From assembly GCA_016931895.1 (NCBI GenBank), contig JAFGDY010000274.1, positions 1 through 40,124 on the forward strand: a stretch of 40,124 bases of DNA. The letters run 5' to 3'. The position numbers and the translations under genes were made by a program. This document shows positions 6,320 to 40,124 of the stretch, in pieces. The DNA comes from Anaerolineae bacterium (GTDB lineage: Bacteria; Chloroflexota; Anaerolineae; 4572-78; J111). Position 1 is the first letter of the stretch. Every line of letters begins with the position of its first letter. The notes below the pieces were generated by a model that was not told the DNA's origin, did no database searches, and saw only the letters and a program-made list of their open reading frames with translations.

Positions 6320-7948
6320 CTATGTTTCGCGTAGAATAACGATGATGACGCCGACCAGGGCGGTGAAGAGCGCCCAGCCCAGGTAGTGCTGCCCTTCCAG
6401 AATAACGTTTGTCCGTAATATCAATTTTCCGATCCCACTCAATGATTTTTCTGCCCAGCGCAGCAGCCAACGTAGCTGGATAAATTCGGCCAGAGGGGGG
6501 ACGGGGATTTTTAGCCGGTCAGTGATATTTTTTCTGAAATACCCTAGGGCAGCGGCAGCTATCACTGAAACAACTATCGTGGCCAGGGTGGCTGGAGTGA
6601 AGTTTGCGGCTGGCCATTCTATGTGCATCAAGGCTGCCAGAACAAGCGGCCCCAAACCCGGTATCAAAAAAGGAACTGCCGCCACCACCCCGGCCACCGA
6701 GGCCATAAGCTGGCCTGGCGTAAGGGATACGGATGATAGATTTGCGTTGTTCTGCCCCAGCAGGCCGAGCCAATAACGAGCCAGTCCGCTCAAAGCCAGG
6801 GTCTGGGCCACCATCACGCCGCCTATCAGGAGAAGATTTTCCAGGGAAAAAATGGCGATCCAGGCCGGCCAATTGAGGAATAAAGGCATGCCCACCAGGG
6901 TGAAGGTAGCAGCCAGGGCCGGAGTGTAGGGCCACCATTGCCAAAGTTCCCGGCCAAAGGGCGGCCTGCCCAGGGAGGGCGTCACCCACAAAGCAGCCAG
7001 GCTCAGAATAAGGCCCACTGCATAAGCCCCGATCACCTCTTTCGATAAAGAGGCCGCCAGTAGCAGGGGCAGCAAGGTTTGGACAAGAATCAGCCGGACA
7101 AGCAACAGGGAACGTTGCCCCTGGCTTGGCTCGATCAACCAGGCCAGCAGGCCATTAAGCAGCATGGTGGTCAAAGTGAGCCAGCGCCAGATTTCGGGCA
7201 ATGATCCGGCCATGCTGCCGGCGACCAGATAAATTCCTACCGCTAATGATAATCCCCAATAAACCAGCATAGAGGAATTGTTTTTAAGATTGGCTTGTTT
7301 TTCAGCAACTGCCGCTTCAGAAAAGGGATATAGTCCCAGTCTTAGCCAGAGAGCCAGGCCCAGCAGAAATGCGCCCCACGTTGTATTTGGCAGGCTTGAG
7401 GTCAGGGTCAAGGCGCTGGCGGTTAAAATACCCAAAAAAAGGCGGGCCGCGCTCAAGTTGTAGTGCCCCTGCGTGAGCCAATAATAAACCAGGCAAAGAT
7501 CAAATACCAGCACTGCATAGTTCAGGGTCAGGTTATTGGCCGACACAAACAAAAAGTAGGCGCTTGCTCCCAGCATGAAGGCCCAGCCCTGATTGCCGCC
7601 GCCAGCCCCAGGGCGCGAAACCAGAGCGCCAACCAGCAAAACCAACAAGCTTAGAATCAAAAAGGTAAGGTTGAGCGGATGGAGTTGGATAGCCAGGGCC
7701 GCGCCACTGCCTTCTGCCGTGAAATTCCAGGCTGATAATTTCAGGCTCTCGATCAAAGCGCCCGGCCCCGCCGTGAGCCGGATGAGCAAGAATAACCCGG
7801 CCAGGACAATCAGACCGGGCGCGCCAAAATATTGGCTGGCCCAATGTCTCTGCCAGGTGGCAGGCAGCCGGGGAAGAAGGATGGACAAAACGAAAGCGCC
7901 CAATAGTAAAACGACCATCGGCGCCAGGAAAGATAAATGGGCAAACAT
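6320..7948 (-). CDS. NuoN/NuoM-like antiporter-type membrane subunit
   Basis: A 542-residue protein with about 14 hydrophobic helices, first gene of the leftward membrane operon. D150 in YAVLVFDLCLVYYWL sits where antiporter subunits have the TM5 glutamate, and LWLRLGLYPFSEA (200-212) aligns with FKxxxxPFHxW, with R203 in place of the channel lysine and Ser-Glu after PF. These are conservative or partial replacements, suggesting a diverged proton or sodium channel subunit. It may form a small membrane module with the two following genes. A promoter of its own (7958-7986) lies nine bases before the ATG with no Shine-Dalgarno, so translation is probably leaderless. Confidence 0.75.
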   Translation of the reverse strand: MFAHLSFLAPMVVLLLGAFVLSILLPRLPATWQRHWASQYFGAPGLIVLAGLFLLIRLTAGPGALIESLKLSAWNFTAEGSGAALAIQLHPLNLTFLILSLLVLLVGALVSRPGAGGGNQGWAFMLGASAYFLFVSANNLTLNYAVLVFDLCLVYYWLTQGHYNLSAARLFLGILTASALTLTSSLPNTTWGAFLLGLALWLRLGLYPFSEAAVAEKQANLKNNSSMLVYWGLSLAVGIYLVAGSMAGSLPEIWRWLTLTTMLLNGLLAWLIEPSQGQRSLLLVRLILVQTLLPLLLAASLSKEVIGAYAVGLILSLAALWVTPSLGRPPFGRELWQWWPYTPALAATFTLVGMPLFLNWPAWIAIFSLENLLLIGGVMVAQTLALSGLARYWLGLLGQNNANLSSVSLTPGQLMASVAGVVAAVPFLIPGLGPLVLAALMHIEWPAANFTPATLATIVVSVIAAAALGYFRKNITDRLKIPVPPLAEFIQLRWLLRWAEKSLSGIGKLILRTNVILEGQHYLGWALFTALVGVIIVILRET

Positions 7949-8015: not shown

Positions 8016-9719
8016 TTAGTTGAGGGCGCAGAGAATATAGTTGCTGTTTTCAAAAATGATTTGAGGGCATTGTTGTTTGACATACTCCACGATGCCCCTG
8101 ACAAAGGTTTGCTGTTCGGCTTGACTGACCGGTTTTGTTTCAGAGGGTTTGCGCCAGCGGGAAATAACAGCCGGGCCAATAATGAGCACATCATCTTTGG
8201 CCGGAGACATCCATTGCCGCCGGGGCAGGGGGTAAAAGATACGCCCCGTAAAGGCGGCGATTTCGGCGGATTTATAATTTTCGGGGTAAAAGACCCGGCT
8301 GGTGGAGGGAAGTTGTTGAATAACGTCTACTACAGCGGCCTGGTCGGCGCGAGGCACAATCATCCAGGCCAGGCCGATGCGAGAGCTGGCCAGGTGTTTT
8401 TGATACCAATATTCAATGAGATCGTCAGACATCAAAAAAGTAGCCGCCTGTTTTTGGCTATAGAAATTCAGGCCCAACAGTAGGGTGACCCCGACGGCTA
8501 ACGATAGGTTGAGCCAAACGGGTCGGGTTCTGGCATAACGCCACAGGATACTCCAAAGAAGAGAGAGCAGCAAGACAGCCAGAATCAAAGCGGCCCAATA
8601 ATGTCGAACCCAACCATTCTCCGATAGCAGAATAAACCATGTAGTATGAACCAACCAGCCGCCCCACAATAAAATTACCAGGTTTTGCTGTCGGGGGTGA
8701 TTTCTGAGTCGCCAGGCCAGCCAAGGCCCGGCCAGAGTGATGAGCATAAAAGTGATCAGGCTTAAGGCATGGTGGGGATGGGAGATGTCGGAGATGAGAG
8801 AGAATTTATACCACAAAAATTCAATACCTTTGACTTGCTCTCCTAAACCACTGCCGGCGAGCAGAATGACGTTAAGGCGTCCCTGACCGTGTTGGAGATA
8901 GGTGTCAAAGCCAAACTTTTGGGTGATGATGATGAGTTGAATTGTTTCCCAGATCAGGGGAAAGCATAGCAGGCTCAGGGCTGTGACCAGACCTTGTTTT
9001 AAGGTTATCCTTTTCTGGAAATATAAAATCAACCACAATAACCCCAGGCTGCTTAAAGCCAACAGCGAAACTAACTTGGCGGTAAGGGCCAAACCCCCTA
9101 TCAGGCCACTCAAGAGAAACCAGCGCAGTTTCTTTTTGTCGGCGACGGTGGCCTTGGTAAAAATTATAAAAGAAGCCAGGATACAGGTAATGGCCGGGAC
9201 TTCTCCCAAAGATTCGTAACCCAAAAAAACAGTCAAGTGGGGATAAAAGAAAAAAATAAGTTGAAAAAGAAACGCAGCCCCAAAGCCGCCTATGGAAAAC
9301 AGCAGCCAGGAAGCCAGGCTTAAAAAGGCCAGGTAGAATAACAGGGAGGCGACTCTGAATTGCCAGAAACCGCTGCCAAATAGTTTGATCATAAGCGCGT
9401 CTGGCATCACCTGAGTAGGCCCCACGGTGCCTTCGGCAAAAAAGTAAACCCGGCCTTCTTTATCTTGGATTTGAAAAAATTCCCCGTTCATGTCCAAACC
9501 TGCCGCCAGGGTAGGGTCCGACATGGTACTGACCAGGGTGGTATACGTGCCTCGTTCGGCCAGGGAGCGCGCCACGCCCAAAAACCAGCCGGAGTCGTGA
9601 TCCACGCCGCCGTAAATATTGACAAAAATAATGAGCCGCCCTAGCTGGTACACAATTATAATGGTCAGCACAGCCCATTGAAAATATTTATTTTGATAAA
9701 GGTGAATCAACTTTTTCAT
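8016..9719 (-). CDS. GT-C fold membrane glycosyltransferase (GT39/PMT_2-like), paralogue 2
   Basis: A 567-residue polytopic protein with an N-terminal membrane anchor, a first extracytoplasmic loop GGVDHDSGWFLGVARSLAE carrying the acidic residues expected at a GT-C active site, about ten more helices and a C-terminal soluble domain of about 130 residues. It probably transfers a sugar from a polyprenyl-phosphate donor to an acceptor outside the cytoplasm. ATG 9719 is chosen because the product then aligns from its first residues with the neighbouring paralogue (QNKY near residue 10 in both); an upstream TTG at 9767 would add 16 unconserved residues. TAAAAT lies seven bases before this ATG. It is last in the seven-gene glycan operon. 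Sugar and acceptor unknown. Confidence 0.8.
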   Translation of the reverse strand: MKKLIHLYQNKYFQWAVLTIIIVYQLGRLIIFVNIYGGVDHDSGWFLGVARSLAERGTYTTLVSTMSDPTLAAGLDMNGEFFQIQDKEGRVYFFAEGTVGPTQVMPDALMIKLFGSGFWQFRVASLLFYLAFLSLASWLLFSIGGFGAAFLFQLIFFFYPHLTVFLGYESLGEVPAITCILASFIIFTKATVADKKKLRWFLLSGLIGGLALTAKLVSLLALSSLGLLWLILYFQKRITLKQGLVTALSLLCFPLIWETIQLIIITQKFGFDTYLQHGQGRLNVILLAGSGLGEQVKGIEFLWYKFSLISDISHPHHALSLITFMLITLAGPWLAWRLRNHPRQQNLVILLWGGWLVHTTWFILLSENGWVRHYWAALILAVLLLSLLWSILWRYARTRPVWLNLSLAVGVTLLLGLNFYSQKQAATFLMSDDLIEYWYQKHLASSRIGLAWMIVPRADQAAVVDVIQQLPSTSRVFYPENYKSAEIAAFTGRIFYPLPRRQWMSPAKDDVLIIGPAVISRWRKPSETKPVSQAEQQTFVRGIVEYVKQQCPQIIFENSNYILCALN

Positions 9720-33975: not shown

Positions 33976-35145
33976 TCAGCGAGGCAGCGAGCGCATAACT
34001 TGTTGCAGCCGGGCCAGTGCCTCTTGCAGCCGTTCTGTTTTGGCGGCAAAAGAAAGGCGCATCCAACCTTCGCCGTTTTGGCCAAAGATGTGGCCGGGGG
34101 TGAGGGAGAGATGGGCTTTTTCCAACAGGTGGGTGTGAAAGCCGAGCGACGTATACCCCGGCGGAACGCGGAACCACACGTATAACGCGCCGTGAGGGGT
34201 GTCGGCGGCCAGGCCGATTTGGCGCAGGGCGGCCAAGCAGAGGTCCCGCCGGTTTTGGTAAATGGCGTTGCGCTCGGCCAGCCAGCTTTGCTCGCCGGTG
34301 AGGGCGGCGGCGGCCATATCCTGGATGGGTTTGGCCAGGCCGGAATCAATTTGGGTTTTAACCGTGGCCAGGGCTTTTACGGCCTCCCGCTGACCTACGG
34401 CCATGCCCACCCGCCAGCCGGCCATGTTGTAGGTTTTGGAGAGCGAGTTGAATTCAATGGCTATCTCTTTGGCCCCCGGCGCTTGCAGCACGCTGGGCGC
34501 CCGGTAGCCGTTGTAGGTCACATCCGTATAGGCCGCATCGTGGCAGAGCAAAATATCATAATGGCGGCAAAACTCAATCGCCTCGGCAAAAAATTCCAGC
34601 GTAGCCGTGGCCCCGGTGGGATTGTTAGGATAGTTGAGCCAGAGCATGCGGGCCGCCCTGGCGCTGGCCTGGGGAATGGCGGAGAAGTCGGGCCGCCAGC
34701 CCCGTTCGGGTAGCAGGTCAAACCACTCGGTGCGACCACCCGCCAGTAACGGGGCAAAGGAGTAGCTGGGATAACCGGGGTCCGGGATGAGCGACAGTTC
34801 GCCCGGATTCAGCCAGGCCAGGTGTAAGTTGACCACACCTTCTTTGGAACCGATAAGGGGGAGTAATTCGTCGTCGGCCAGTTCTACCCCAAAACGTTGC
34901 CGGTAGTAGTGGGCTATGGCCCGGCGCAGATGGGGCTGCCCGGCGTAACCGCCATAGTTGTGTTTGGTGGGGTCGTCGGCGCTGCTTTTTAAGATGTCAA
35001 GCAGCGAGGCAACCGGCGGCATGTCGGGGCTGCCGGCGTCAACCCGGATGATGTCGGCGCCCTGGGCCTGGAGGGCGGCAATCCGCTGGTTGAGCGTGGC
35101 AAAAAAATATTGCGGTAAATTTTGGGCGCGTTGGGCCGGTTTCAT
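33976..35145 (-). CDS. Class I/II PLP-dependent aminotransferase
   Basis: A 389-residue fold-type I aminotransferase. YGGYAGQPHLRRAIAHYY and IGSKEGVVNLHLAWLNPG match the LL-diaminopimelate/aspartate aminotransferase group; LNYPNNPTGA carries the substrate-carboxylate Asn, and SLSKTYNMAGWRVG contains the PLP lysine K237. It could be DapL-like (lysine and peptidoglycan precursor synthesis) or a general amino-acid transaminase; sequence alone does not decide. ATG 35145 overlaps the histidine-kinase stop by four bases (ATGA). Confidence 0.88.
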   Translation of the reverse strand: MKPAQRAQNLPQYFFATLNQRIAALQAQGADIIRVDAGSPDMPPVASLLDILKSSADDPTKHNYGGYAGQPHLRRAIAHYYRQRFGVELADDELLPLIGSKEGVVNLHLAWLNPGELSLIPDPGYPSYSFAPLLAGGRTEWFDLLPERGWRPDFSAIPQASARAARMLWLNYPNNPTGATATLEFFAEAIEFCRHYDILLCHDAAYTDVTYNGYRAPSVLQAPGAKEIAIEFNSLSKTYNMAGWRVGMAVGQREAVKALATVKTQIDSGLAKPIQDMAAAALTGEQSWLAERNAIYQNRRDLCLAALRQIGLAADTPHGALYVWFRVPPGYTSLGFHTHLLEKAHLSLTPGHIFGQNGEGWMRLSFAAKTERLQEALARLQQVMRSLPR

Positions 35146-36425
35146 GAATGATCCGCGTCCGCTTCCTCGGTTTCAAGTTTTAATTGGGCAATGCGCTCTA
35201 CATGAATTCCCGAGCGCGGCGTAACCTGGAGCGGCAAGGTAACAATAAACTTGCTGCCCGGACAATTTTTCAGGTCAAAGCCCGGGCTTTCGGCCCAGAT
35301 TTGCCCGCCGTGCGCTTCTACTAACCCCTTGGCGATGGCCAGCCCCAATCCCGGCCCGGCGCCCATAAATTTGGTCTGCCCGGTTGAATGTAAATCTGAA
35401 TTGCCCACCCGGTAAAACTTTTCAAAGATCTTGTCCCGGTCCTCCGGGGCAATGCCCACGCCGGTATCGGCGATGATGATTTGCAGACAGGCGGCTTTGG
35501 TTTTGGTCGGCGCCACTGCCTGGCCGGTAATAGTGATGTGCCCTCCATCCGGCGTATATTTGATGGCATTGTAGAGGATGTGTTTGAAAACTTGATGCAG
35601 CCGGCGCCCGTCGGCCTCAATCTCCGGGAGGGTATCCAGGTTCACTGCGGCGGTTTGGCGCCGTTCAGCCAGGGCCGTCCTCAGTTGGTCCACAATAAGG
35701 TCAAGGGTCCGTTTGAGGCTGACCGGCTCGACGATCAGGATGAGTTTGTTCATATCCAGGGCGGAGAGGTCGAGCATATCGTTGATAATAACGCCCATGC
35801 GTTCTGCGCCCCGGTTGATCCCTTCGGCCAGCGAATCGGCCTGTTTCCCCATCTCCATATCGCGCAAAATGTTCACGTAACCCTGAATAAGGGTCAGGGG
35901 CGTTTTTAATTCGTGGGCGGCAATGCTGATAAAATCGGTTTTGGCCTGTTCCAATTGAGCCAGTTCGCGGTTGGCCCGGGCTACTTCGGCGGCGTATTCC
36001 ATCACTTTTTGTTCGGATTCGGTGTACAGGCGGGAGATTTCCGAGGCGCGGGCCGCGTGAGCCAGTTTGGTTGTTTCCTGGTAAACTTCAATGGTGACGC
36101 GGGTCAGATGGACAAAAATGGCGTCAAGGTCGGCCAGCATGGCAAAAGCAGGCTCAGGGTCAATCTCCTCGCCAATGCGCTGCCAGATGCGCTGTCGCAG
36201 GCGTTGCGGGACGCCCAGCAGGTCGGTCAGCCCGCGGCCGATGGCCACGGCGTAGGTGGTTGCGCTCTCCACCACCGATTCGGCCAGCCGGGTTTCGCCG
36301 TTCAGGGCCAGATCAATGATGCCTTCGTAGAGAGCCACGTGAAAGGTATTATCTTTTTCGTCGTCAAGGTGGCCCAACATGTCGGCGTGGTCTTGTAGCC
36401 ATTGGGCCAGGCGTTTGTTTTTCAT
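35142..36425 (-). CDS. Soluble sensor histidine kinase with unrecognised helical N-terminal domain
   Basis: A 427-residue kinase without membrane segments. Residues 1-120 form an all-helical domain I do not recognise (perhaps RsbR-N-like), then a coiled coil (about 125-163), HisKA with AAHELKTPLTL (phospho-acceptor H171), and HATPase with NAIKYTPDGG, DTGVGIAPEDRDKIFEKFYR and GAGPGLGLAIAKGLVEAHGG. It probably senses a cytoplasmic signal. ATG 36425 is chosen; GTG 36434 is also possible. TACAAT lies about nine bases before the ATG. No response regulator is adjacent; the KdpE-like regulator at 29902 or the one at 830 are candidate partners. It is coupled to an aminotransferase gene. Confidence 0.88.
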   Translation of the reverse strand: MKNKRLAQWLQDHADMLGHLDDEKDNTFHVALYEGIIDLALNGETRLAESVVESATTYAVAIGRGLTDLLGVPQRLRQRIWQRIGEEIDPEPAFAMLADLDAIFVHLTRVTIEVYQETTKLAHAARASEISRLYTESEQKVMEYAAEVARANRELAQLEQAKTDFISIAAHELKTPLTLIQGYVNILRDMEMGKQADSLAEGINRGAERMGVIINDMLDLSALDMNKLILIVEPVSLKRTLDLIVDQLRTALAERRQTAAVNLDTLPEIEADGRRLHQVFKHILYNAIKYTPDGGHITITGQAVAPTKTKAACLQIIIADTGVGIAPEDRDKIFEKFYRVGNSDLHSTGQTKFMGAGPGLGLAIAKGLVEAHGGQIWAESPGFDLKNCPGSKFIVTLPLQVTPRSGIHVERIAQLKLETEEADADHS

Positions 36426-36444
36426 AAGAATCACATTGTAAAAC

Positions 36445-36529
36445 GAGAGGAGGAATCAGGAATTAGGAATTGGGGACAGGAGAACACTCCTCCTAATTTC
36501 TAATTCCTACTCTCTCATCTTCAATTCCT
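36445..36529. repeat. Mirrored heptamer repeats AGGAATT, overlapping the end of trmFO
   Basis: Three tandem heptamers AGGAATC, AGGAATT, AGGAATT run from 36451 to 36471. The opposite-strand arm has AATTTCT (36495), AATTCCT (36502) and AATTCCT (36523). GAGGAGGA-type ends and CTCCTCC pair as well. The right arm runs into the 3' coding end of trmFO, whose stop is at 36493-36495. An imperfect hairpin forms between trmFO and the histidine-kinase gene and could act as a terminator or mRNA stabiliser. Confidence 0.6.
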
Positions 36530-37842
36530 ACTTCTTTTATCATCGCTTCCAAATCCCGCAAGGCTCGCTCGGCATAAGCCTGGTAACGGGCCTGTTTGTG
36601 ACGAATATTACGTTCCAGGGGCGGCAGCAAGCCAAAATTGGCCTTCATCGGCTGAAAATCTTTTGGCTCGGCGTGAGTGATGTAGTGGCCTAACGCTCCC
36701 AGCATGGTGGTGGGGGGCAGGGTCAGGAGCGATTGGCCTTGCAGCAGCCGGGCGGCATTAATGCCGGCCAGCAAGCCGGTAGCGGCGTTGCCCACGTACC
36801 CCTCTACCCCCGTAATTTGCCCGGCAAAAAAGAGGTCGGGCCGGGCGCGCCACTGCATCGTTGGTTCCAGCAGGCTGGGCGAATTAAGGTAAGTGTTACG
36901 ATGCATCATCCCGTAGCGCATAAATTCGGCGTTTTCCAGGCCGGGGATCATTTGAAAAACCCGTTTCTGCTCGCCCCATTTTAGATTGGTCTGAAACCCG
37001 ACCATATTGTACAGCGTTCCGGCCAAATTGTCCTGCCGCAGTTGCAGCACGGCGTAAGGCCGGCGGCCCGTGCGCGGGTCGGTTAAACCCACCGGGCGCA
37101 TAGGGCCAAAGGCCAGGGCCTGCTCCCCCCGGCGAGCCAACTCCTCGATGGGCAGGCACATTTCAAAAAAGTGATTGTCTTCTTTTTCAAACTGTTTGAG
37201 TTCTATCTGTTCGGCCTGGCTCAAGGCCTTGACCAGGGCCAGGTATTCATTTTTATTCAAAGGGCAATTGAGGTAATCGCCTTCCGCCTGCTCTCCCCGC
37301 CCGTAGCGGCTGGCCCGGAAGGCAATGTCCAGATTGATGGAGTCAACTTCCACAATGGGCGAGACCGCATCGTAAAAATAGAGATACTGCTCGCCCGATA
37401 GCGCCGCAATCTCCCGCGCCAGCGCCGCAGACGTGAGCGGCCCGGTAGCGATGATGGCGGGCGTGTTGGGAATTTTTTTGACCTCTTCGCGCCGTACTTC
37501 AATCAGAGGATGGCTCTCGATACGTTGGGTCACACCCCCGGCAAACTTTTCTCTATCCACGGCCAGCGCTCCGCCCGCAGGCACAGCCGCTTCCCCGGCC
37601 ACCTGCATGATCAAGGAACCCAGCCGCCGCATTTCGGCTTTGAGCAGGCCCGGGGCGCGGTGGGGCAAATCGCTGCCCAGCGAGTTGCTGCACACCAATT
37701 CGGCCAGTTGGTCGGTCACGTGGGCCGGGGTTTGGCGCGCCGGCCGCATTTCGTATAGACAGATTGGTATTCCTTGCTGCGCCGCTTGCCAGGCGGCTTC
37801 GGTTCCGGCCAGGCCGCCGCCGATGATGGTAAGTTTTTGCAT
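36493..37842 (-). CDS. trmFO: Methylenetetrahydrofolate-tRNA-(uracil-5-)-methyltransferase TrmFO
   Basis: A 449-residue FAD- and folate-dependent enzyme that forms ribothymidine at position 54 of tRNA. The FAD-binding start [40 protein letters not shown] and the C-terminal [18 protein letters not shown] are diagnostic for the TrmFO branch of the GidA-related family. ATG 37842 is chosen because the Rossmann motif begins at residue 4 and a promoter ends seven bases upstream; an in-frame start at 37878 would read through the promoter. The last residues (EDERVGIRN) are encoded by the heptamer-repeat arm and do not look like conserved family sequence. Probably monocistronic. Confidence 0.93.
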
Positions 37843-37849
37843 ATACCTT

Positions 37850-37878
37850 ATTTTACTGTAAGAGAAAGAAATAACCAA
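37850..37878 (-). promoter_or_regulatory. Leaderless promoter of trmFO
   Basis: On the minus strand TTGGTT (37878-37873), a 17-nt spacer and TAAAAT (37855-37850) precede ATG 37842 by seven bases. Transcription should start about at the ATG. Confidence 0.65.
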
Positions 37879-37946: not shown

Positions 37947-39908
37947 ATGTCTCGCCAGGACGACCTGCAACGCTTAATTGCCAATTATCAGCGCCGGCTA
38001 CAAAAACTCAAAGAGCAGCGGGCCGCGATGGGCATTCATACGCCGCCTTATATTTTGACCGAAATTGAAGATACCGAGGCCGAACTGGCCAAGTTGCAAG
38101 CCGAATTGGTTCGCCTGTCAGGCCCCCGCCTGGCCGCAGAAAAAATAGCCGAGCCGGTTTCGGCGGGGCAGCCGGGGCAAATTTTCATTAGCTACTCCCG
38201 CCGGGACAAGGCTTTTGTGGAACGCCTGGCCGCCGATTTGGAGCGGGCCGGGTTTGCCACCTGGTGGGATGTTTCCCAATTGGTGGGCGGGGAGATATGG
38301 ACGCAGACCATTGAGGCCGCGCTGGCCCAGAGCCAATGCTGTTTGGTGGTTCTCTCGCCTAACTCGGTTCAGGCGGAATGGGTGCGCAAGGAGTATCTTT
38401 ACGCCGAAGCCCTGAAACTGAAAATTGTCCCCCTTGTTCACAAAACTTGCCGGATTCCACTGGCCTTGACCGGCTTGCAATATCTTGATTTTCAAAGGGG
38501 CGATTATCAGGAGAGCCTGCGCCAATTGCTGGCCTGTCTTGGCGCGGAATTGGTTCTCCCCCCGCCGGGGGGAGCGAGAGGGGGGCAACCGCCCGGCCTG
38601 CTACAGAAGTTCCTGGCCTTGGCCCGCGACCCGTTGTGGCAGATGATTGGCGCAGCCGTGGCTATCTTGGCCCTGGCCTGCGGCGTTTGCGCCTTTCTGG
38701 TTGAAAGATTCACCCCGATTATGGCCAACCCAACGCCGACCACCGTGGTGATGGCTACCACAGATACGCTCACTTTAACCCCTGTTGCTACTCTGTTACC
38801 TGTTACCTTGTCCCCCACTCCAACAGCTACCGATACTCTCATCCCCCCTACTGGTACAACCCCCCAACCACCCATTCCCACCGATACCCCCATTCCCCCT
38901 ACCAAAACTCCCTTCCCAACCCCAACCCCAACCCCCACGCCCTACCTCCGCGTCAATACTGACAAAATGAACGTGCGGGCCGGGCCGGGCACAGAGTACA
39001 ATGTTGTGGGCGAGGCCAAACAAAATGAAACCTACGCCGTGGCCGCCCAAACCCAAACCGGCGACTGGCTGCGCCTGACCGGGCCGGCGGAACGCTGGCT
39101 GGCCGCCGACCTGGTGGAACTGTTTGGCGCAGCTGCCGTGGCCGCGTCCATTCCCCCCACCCCCACCGCCCCGCCCATACCCGCCGGAATGGTGTTGGTC
39201 CCCGCCGGGCCGTTTGAAATGGGTAGTGATAATGGTCAAGACGATGAAAAACCTATCCACACTGTTACCCTGGACGCTTTTTACATTGACCAATACGAAT
39301 TGACCAACAGCCGCTACGCCGCCTGCGTAGAGGCGGGCGTTTGCGCGCCGCCTTCCTCCACCAGATCCTCTACCCGCGATAGCTATTACGGCAATCCCGA
39401 ATATAATGAGTACCCGGTTATTTACGTTAATTGGGAGCAGGCCCAAACTTATTGCCGGTGGCGCGGGGCCAGATTGCCCACCGAAGCCGAATGGGAAAAA
39501 GCCGCGCGGGGCGTGGATGGCCGCGCCTATCCCTGGGGAAATGATTTTGATGGTAGCCGACTTAATTTTTGTGATAAAAGTTGCGGGTTTGATTGGGCCG
39601 ATAAAAATTATGATGATGGATATGCTGATACCGCCCCGGTAGGTTCTTACCCAATCGGAGCCAGTCCTTATCAGGTTTATGACATGGCGGGTAATGTTTG
39701 GGAATGGACCGCCGACTGGTATGCGTCCGATTATTACGCCAATTCGCCGCCCGAAAATCCCCCCGGCCCGGCCTCCGGTGAATATCGCGTGGTGCGTGGG
39801 GGCGCGTGGAGCAACAATTCTCTCAGCGCGCGCGCGGCCGCTCGTTACGGGTTCGCGCCGGCCAGTAGTAACTACGGTCTTGGTTTTCGTTGCGTCCGCT
39901 CACCATGA
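37947..39908 (+). CDS. TIR - transmembrane - SH3b - FGE-like receptor protein
   Basis: A 653-residue multidomain protein. Order: coiled coil (about 3-57); TIR domain (78-198) with [15 protein letters not shown] and EWVRKE, where E149 matches the NADase glutamate of SARM1 (WVHKE); one membrane helix (about 232-252); Pro/Thr-rich linker (255-333); bacterial SH3 domain (334-393, [17 protein letters not shown]); FGE-sulfatase/C-type-lectin-like domain (about 411-652). The TIR faces the cytoplasm and SH3b/FGE face outside. True formylglycine oxidase needs a Cys pair in the RxxRGGS region; here [18 protein letters not shown] has none, so the domain is probably binding only. The C-terminus resembles retroelement-diversified proteins. 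Likely a surface sensor that triggers NAD-consuming or signalling TIR activity; inference. Confidence 0.9.
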
Positions 39909-39910
39909 CT

Positions 39911-39948
39911 CTGGAATGCTGAATACTGAAATACTGAAATTCTGAATC
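39911..39948. repeat. Short tandem repeats CTGAA(A)TN downstream of the TIR gene
   Basis: Five 7-8 nt units run head to tail: CTGGAATG (39911), CTGAATA (39919), CTGAAATA (39926), CTGAAATT (39934) and CTGAATC (39942). They begin three bases after the TGA stop. Unlike other repeat-bearing spacers in this window there is no mirrored arm in view. Confidence 0.6.
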
Positions 39949-39969
39949 GGCAAAATTTAAACCGCAGCC

Positions 39970-40045
39970 TGTCATTTCGAGCGCAGCGAGAAATCTCCTT
40001 AAGGCGTGTCAACTAAAGGAGATTTCTCGGCCTACGGCCTCGAAG
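39970..40045. repeat. REP-like hairpin element (GTCATTTCGAGCGCAGCGAG type)
   Basis: CGAGAAATCTCCTT (39987-40000) pairs perfectly with AAGGAGATTTCTCG (40016-40029) around a 15-nt loop. The left flank GTCATTTCGAGCGCAG matches a dispersed intergenic repeat type I know from several phyla, usually ending in the mirrored CTGCGCTCGAAATGAC. Here the right flank reads GCCTACGGCCTCGAAG instead, so the outer arm is degraded. It may terminate transcription of the TIR gene. Confidence 0.6.
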
Positions 40046-40124
40046 CAACTGTGATTTAATTTTATCAAAAACGACGCACATCAAGCCGGCGACCAGGCTT
40101 GTCGGGTGCGAACCATTGCATTAA
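40046..40124. other. Window end, no supported gene
   Basis: The last 79 nt show no recognisable feature. On the minus strand a 19-codon open tail (ending at TGA 40067-40065) enters from the right edge and could be the end of a leftward gene, but it is too short to judge. Confidence 0.3.

Follow-up and report, generated by a model that had tools for sequence, protein, structure and literature searches.

Several described proteins resemble the one considered here. Treponema TvpA (2y3c) and Thermus TaqVP, two variable proteins of diversity-generating retroelements (DGRs), have a C-type-lectin domain of the FGE (formylglycine-generating enzyme) subtype and carry their variable segment C-terminally, as does our protein; TaqVP likewise lacks the FGE catalytic residues (PMC6328139). 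A report on Thiohalocapsa PB-PSB1 describes DGR-diversified sensors belonging to the conflict systems of multicellular bacteria (PMC10907252). Remote variable proteins of cyanobacterial DGRs share with our protein a C-type-lectin (CLec) fold and a position away from the reverse transcriptase (RT); some carry TIR-like domains, and transposases lie nearby (PMC7517822). DGR targets have also been reported to be followed, after their variable region, by a GC-rich hairpin or cruciform (PMC3240598).

The window—the whole stretch of DNA analysed here, 40,124 bases in length—is a complete contig from an Anaerolineae bacterium, whose 6.06 Mb genome is assembled in 320 contigs and is 97.4% complete. An earlier note on this sequence proposed that the TIR-FGE protein encoded at its right end looks like a DGR target whose binding face may be actively diversified. 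The first part of this proposal is supported in that the protein belongs to a family with proven DGR targets, TIR-FGE fusions included, and its gene carries a CTG array after the stop; the second part, active diversification of the gene, is unsupported. On balance, we favour the reading that this is an orphan DGR variable protein, with a binding face that is probably now fixed.

A TIR-FGE protein at the end of a contig

The features of the gene and its downstream region are listed in Table 1. The TIR domain contains the conserved helix-C glutamate expected of the fold (E149, within EWVRKE), and is predicted from its sequence to be a TIR effector; in the arrangement W145-x3-E149, this residue fits the place of the TIR catalytic glutamate. 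A Pro/Thr linker lies between the hydrophobic stretch and the SH3_3 domain.

Table 1. Features of the TIR-FGE gene and the contig end (window coordinates).
Feature	Position	Strand	Basis or detail
CDS of 653-aa TIR-TM-SH3-FGE protein	37947..39908	+	
TIR_2 domain, residues 79-195	38181..38531	+	Pfam PF13676, E=8.7e-29
Probable transmembrane (TM) helix, residues 231-253 (hydrophobic stretch [23 protein letters not shown])	38637..38705	+	From the sequence
Bacterial SH3 domain (SH3_3), residues 341-390; borderline	38967..39116	+	Pfam, 25.7 bits vs cut-off 27
FGE-type C-type-lectin fold domain (FGE-sulfatase), residues 414-651	39186..39899	+	Pfam, E=2.4e-65
Variable-region-like tail	39789..39899	+	Template AAY-equivalent positions 622-624, 627, 632, 634, 636, 637, 640, 642-644
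Periodic CTG array, 5 units, directly after stop	39911..39944	+	Units at 39911, 39919, 39926, 39934, 39942
Dispersed palindromic (REP/MITE-like) repeat	39967..40044	+	Tens of genome matches
Repeat common to six other contig ends; mobile-element end interrupting the palindrome	40045..40124	+	Assembly breaks here

The model of the FGE domain (pLDDT 93) matches FGEs in the PDB and, ranked lower, the DGR variable protein TvpA (fold match rank 45; sequence match E=3e-18). The protein thus has a C-type-lectin/FGE fold with the variable segment at its C-terminus, and targets confirmed by their templates are homologous to it. In the alignment, the FGE catalytic cysteine pair is missing at and near both positions, and Cys649 is the sole cysteine within the last 100 residues, so that binding is a likelier role for the domain than catalysis.

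Beyond the stop codon, the sequence from about position 40045 (~80 bp) is identical at seven contig ends: that of the window contig and those of C32, C190, C261, C248, C246 and C150. At these ends it adjoins palindromic REP-like repeats. This shared end is probably a mobile element that targets such palindromes; our guess is that it is IS110/IS621-like. Rfam returned no match for positions 39700-40124. Upstream of the gene, trmFO and a histidine kinase gene (35142-37878) are also adjacent to each other in several relatives. Within the stretches examined, no TIR-FGE homologue lies beside trmFO in these relatives; there is therefore no syntenic orthologue for comparison, and this suggests that the TIR-FGE gene was gained in the present lineage.

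Reverse transcriptases and templates in relatives and in this genome

Class-level relatives contain genuine DGRs that target FGE proteins homologous to the window protein. In several of them, matches to the RT family PF00078 adjoin FGE homologues, and the FGE 3' end occurs again within the locus, in a copy that differs from the gene almost solely at the copy's adenines. Mismatches at template adenines versus other positions number 20 and 6 at locus L076, 20 and 6 at L077, and 27 and 6 at L083; a DGR RT adjoins these targets, and L083 is a TIR_2+FGE target with its own RT and template. The usual order is target, RT, template; the RT lies within about 100-160 nt, and most templates are found 1.6-2 kb downstream of the variable region (nearer in L087 and L019). 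The target architectures include TIR-FGE (L083), caspase-FGE (L136, L093), NACHT-FGE (L089, L087) and kinase-FGE (L019). One target (L029/L197, G002:C337) lies on a different contig from the template that it matches (that of L076, G002:C298; 24 adenine versus 2 other mismatches), and hence targets without an adjoining RT are real in this FGE family. In a tree of FGE domains from which the tail was excluded, the window protein falls in a group of 14 rows with three template-matched targets (SH-aLRT 91); the same group holds two further genes with CTG arrays.

Two loci depart from the usual layout. At L199 (G041:C73), a single template (8242-8382) seems to be used by two FGE targets of the same contig, with variable regions at 7557-7696 and at 152-277; the stretch examined contains no RT, and the DGR RT of that genome is on a different contig. 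At L126, two FGE targets, with variable regions ending at 6660 and 10286, flank one RT, and template matches lie about 1.9 kb downstream of the first target and 1.7 kb upstream of the second. This arrangement suggests either that both use one template or that one has been copied into the other.

A DGR-RT profile was made from ten of these RTs. It gives DGR RTs at least 289 bits and other RTs at most 134 bits, and as a positive control it detects a DGR RT in 63 of the 298 genomes of the class. In the genome of the window (G000), it finds no match at E<=10, and PF00078 likewise has none. The same-genus genome G001 also has no DGR RT and encodes a TIR-FGE protein (L196) with a CTG array; its RTs, considered as RTs acting in trans, were rejected with scores of 130 and 44 bits. 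Protein L196 itself (G001:C22, 3262-4737) is 57% identical in its N-terminal part and has an NNY-type tail. The template search in G000 combined BLAST with two A-tolerant patterns, which permit A at the presumed substituted sites and up to 3 mismatches; all return solely the gene itself. Comparison with other species' templates yielded 25 adenine and 21 other mismatches at best, which we do not regard as a match. The second FGE gene of this genome with a CTG array (L187, on contig C109) likewise lacks an adjoining RT, and a search of the genome for its template was negative.

The earlier note had expected the RT and template just beyond position 40124. Neither was found in the genome, an absence that the note had named as one of two findings to count against its reading and that holds as far as the assembly goes. 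The window protein can thus not be assigned to a functioning DGR and, since no same-species template is at hand, adenine mutagenesis in the gene's past is something that we infer. Even so, an RT-template cassette situated between repeats could be missing from an assembly of this kind, in which the contig breaks 216 nt past the stop. This leaves room for the alternative that diversification of the gene continues, driven by an RT and template that lie in the gap or in other sequence missing from the assembly. The contig ends in a repeat soon after the stop, and relatives have their RT and, further on, their template downstream of the target; remote targets occur; and the tail codons described below lie within the range of confirmed targets. 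We nevertheless consider this alternative unlikely: a profile that detects DGR RTs in 63 of 298 genomes of the class finds none here or in the same-genus genome, neither CTG-array FGE gene has a template, and the palindrome and the mobile-element-like end, both within 140 nt of the stop, take the place that the RT has in relatives.

Codons of the tail and the CTG array after the stop

The protein ends in [40 protein letters not shown]. The earlier note described the residues and coordinates of this tail correctly (39789-39905), and added that codons at 14 positions between the fixed residues (625-627, 634-637, 639-645) are nearly all NNC or NNT. The 11 codons that it listed are indeed of this type; its list omits CTT (645) as well as GGG (635) and GCG (637), the latter two of which break the rule. 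Both could be reached from template codons (AGG and ACG, respectively), and AGG is present at position 635 in the genuine templates of L077 and L078.

For a comparison on equal terms, 12 test positions were set without reference to the window, as those at which half or more of the 16 confirmed templates from relatives carry AAY. The window gene has NNY at 11 of these 12, and all 18 scorable confirmed DGR targets have NNY at 11 or more. However, the same level is reached by 25 of 128 homologues in whose locus no template was detected, and a test of synonymous codon choice in the window tail is not significant (p=0.53). The pattern is compatible with adenine mutagenesis, but by itself gives no more than many FGE tails do: it is a necessary, not a sufficient, mark of a DGR target, and after the comparison with the 128 homologues, codon composition was dropped as proof of DGR targeting. 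Homology to confirmed targets and the flanking sequence carry more weight. The nearest full-domain homologues, L017 (64%) and L018 (63%), have non-NNY codons at the test sites that are not DGR-like.

A second mark lies outside the coding sequence. In confirmed targets, a run of CTG units at 6-10 nt spacing occurs immediately 3' of the stop, and in many cases a GC-rich hairpin comes next. At least four CTG units follow 13 of 19 confirmed targets versus 5 of 128 FGEs without a template (Fisher p of about 1e-10, a guide only, as the sequences are related), and 2 of 943 other ORF ends, one of these two being a TIR-FGE gene from the same genus. The array was defined on this first set of targets and held in a second, consisting of 15 targets located via their RT: 11 have at least four units and all 15 have at least three (one member, L223, shares its tail with L130, a first-set target, and does not count as independent). 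The window contains no other five-unit CTG run on either strand. L018, among the closest homologues, has the array despite its codons. The hairpin seen after L077, L019 and L130 is absent 3' of the window array (z=1.12, versus -2.40 for L077 and -2.85 for L130), and the genuine target L076 is also without one.

Within the genome of the window, a five-unit array also follows the stop of the L187 FGE gene (G000:C109, 1843-3249, minus strand), which adjoins NACHT and caspase-like genes. A check of the DGR literature, which was not exhaustive, found no mention of a CTG array after the stop; we use it as a lineage feature found in this analysis rather than as a literature criterion. We tentatively propose, while holding the opposite to be somewhat more probable, that Chloroflexota DGRs recognize their targets through the array, which would be an undescribed cis-element, and that in genomes from which the RT has been lost it persists as a scar marking orphaned, frozen receptors, the TIR-FGE protein of the window among them.

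That the domain is an ordinary FGE-like one, never a DGR target, and resembles targets in its tail since variation in these loops is common to all FGE/C-type-lectin proteins, would sit well with the codon results, the nearest homologues and the missing RT and template, but is improbable given how strongly an array directly after the stop is tied to confirmed targets, with which the gene also groups in the tree.

A probable orphaned receptor and its described counterparts

Most likely, the window protein has DGR targets among its ancestors and functions in the same way, as a TIR receptor that binds through a C-type-lectin face. As read from its domain order, it would probably be a membrane receptor, in which a cytoplasmic N-terminal TIR effector is followed by (i) one transmembrane helix, (ii) the Pro/Thr linker, (iii) the SH3 domain and (iv) the C-terminal FGE-type domain. 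The last of these, without the FGE catalytic cysteines, would serve as the binding face; we infer that it senses a ligand and that the TIR output is of the NADase type. In ancestors of the protein, a DGR RT would have copied a template into the gene's 3' end while misreading adenines; the CTG array after the stop, usually together with a GC-rich hairpin, would have belonged to the target context. Both RT and template would since have been lost in this lineage, or were never carried along. With these gone, the hairpin missing and mobile repeats at the RT position, the binding face is probably fixed and evolving as part of an ordinary gene.

Sensors that couple a TIR domain to DGR diversification are candidates for bacterial immune receptors whose diversity is programmed, and an orphan receptor shows the outcome of losing the diversification machinery. 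The CTG array offers a sequence mark for finding remote or relict targets without a template and, if needed for retrohoming, would be a new part of the DGR target site.

Set beside known systems, the window domain has the fold of the formylglycine-generating enzymes (2q17, 6muj, human SUMF1), at 34-37% identity in structural alignments; unlike theirs, its tail carries no cysteine at either catalytic position or close to it. TvpA and TaqVP are single-domain proteins, to which the window protein adds a TIR domain, a probable transmembrane helix and SH3, with no RT or template in its genome. The cyanobacterial remote targets are linked to their DGR by a template in the same genome (PMC7517822); none was found for the window gene. 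The Thiohalocapsa PB-PSB1 system (PMC10907252) differs in that the window comes from a Chloroflexota-type organism with no intact locus left in its genome, and the accessible part of that report makes no mention of a CTG array. There are two likenesses: firstly, CLec/FGE sensors are tied to TIR, NACHT/STAND, CHAT or kinase domains, as the one in the window is to TIR; secondly, decay is of the same kind, with degenerate loci and MITE-like arrays in place of RT genes.
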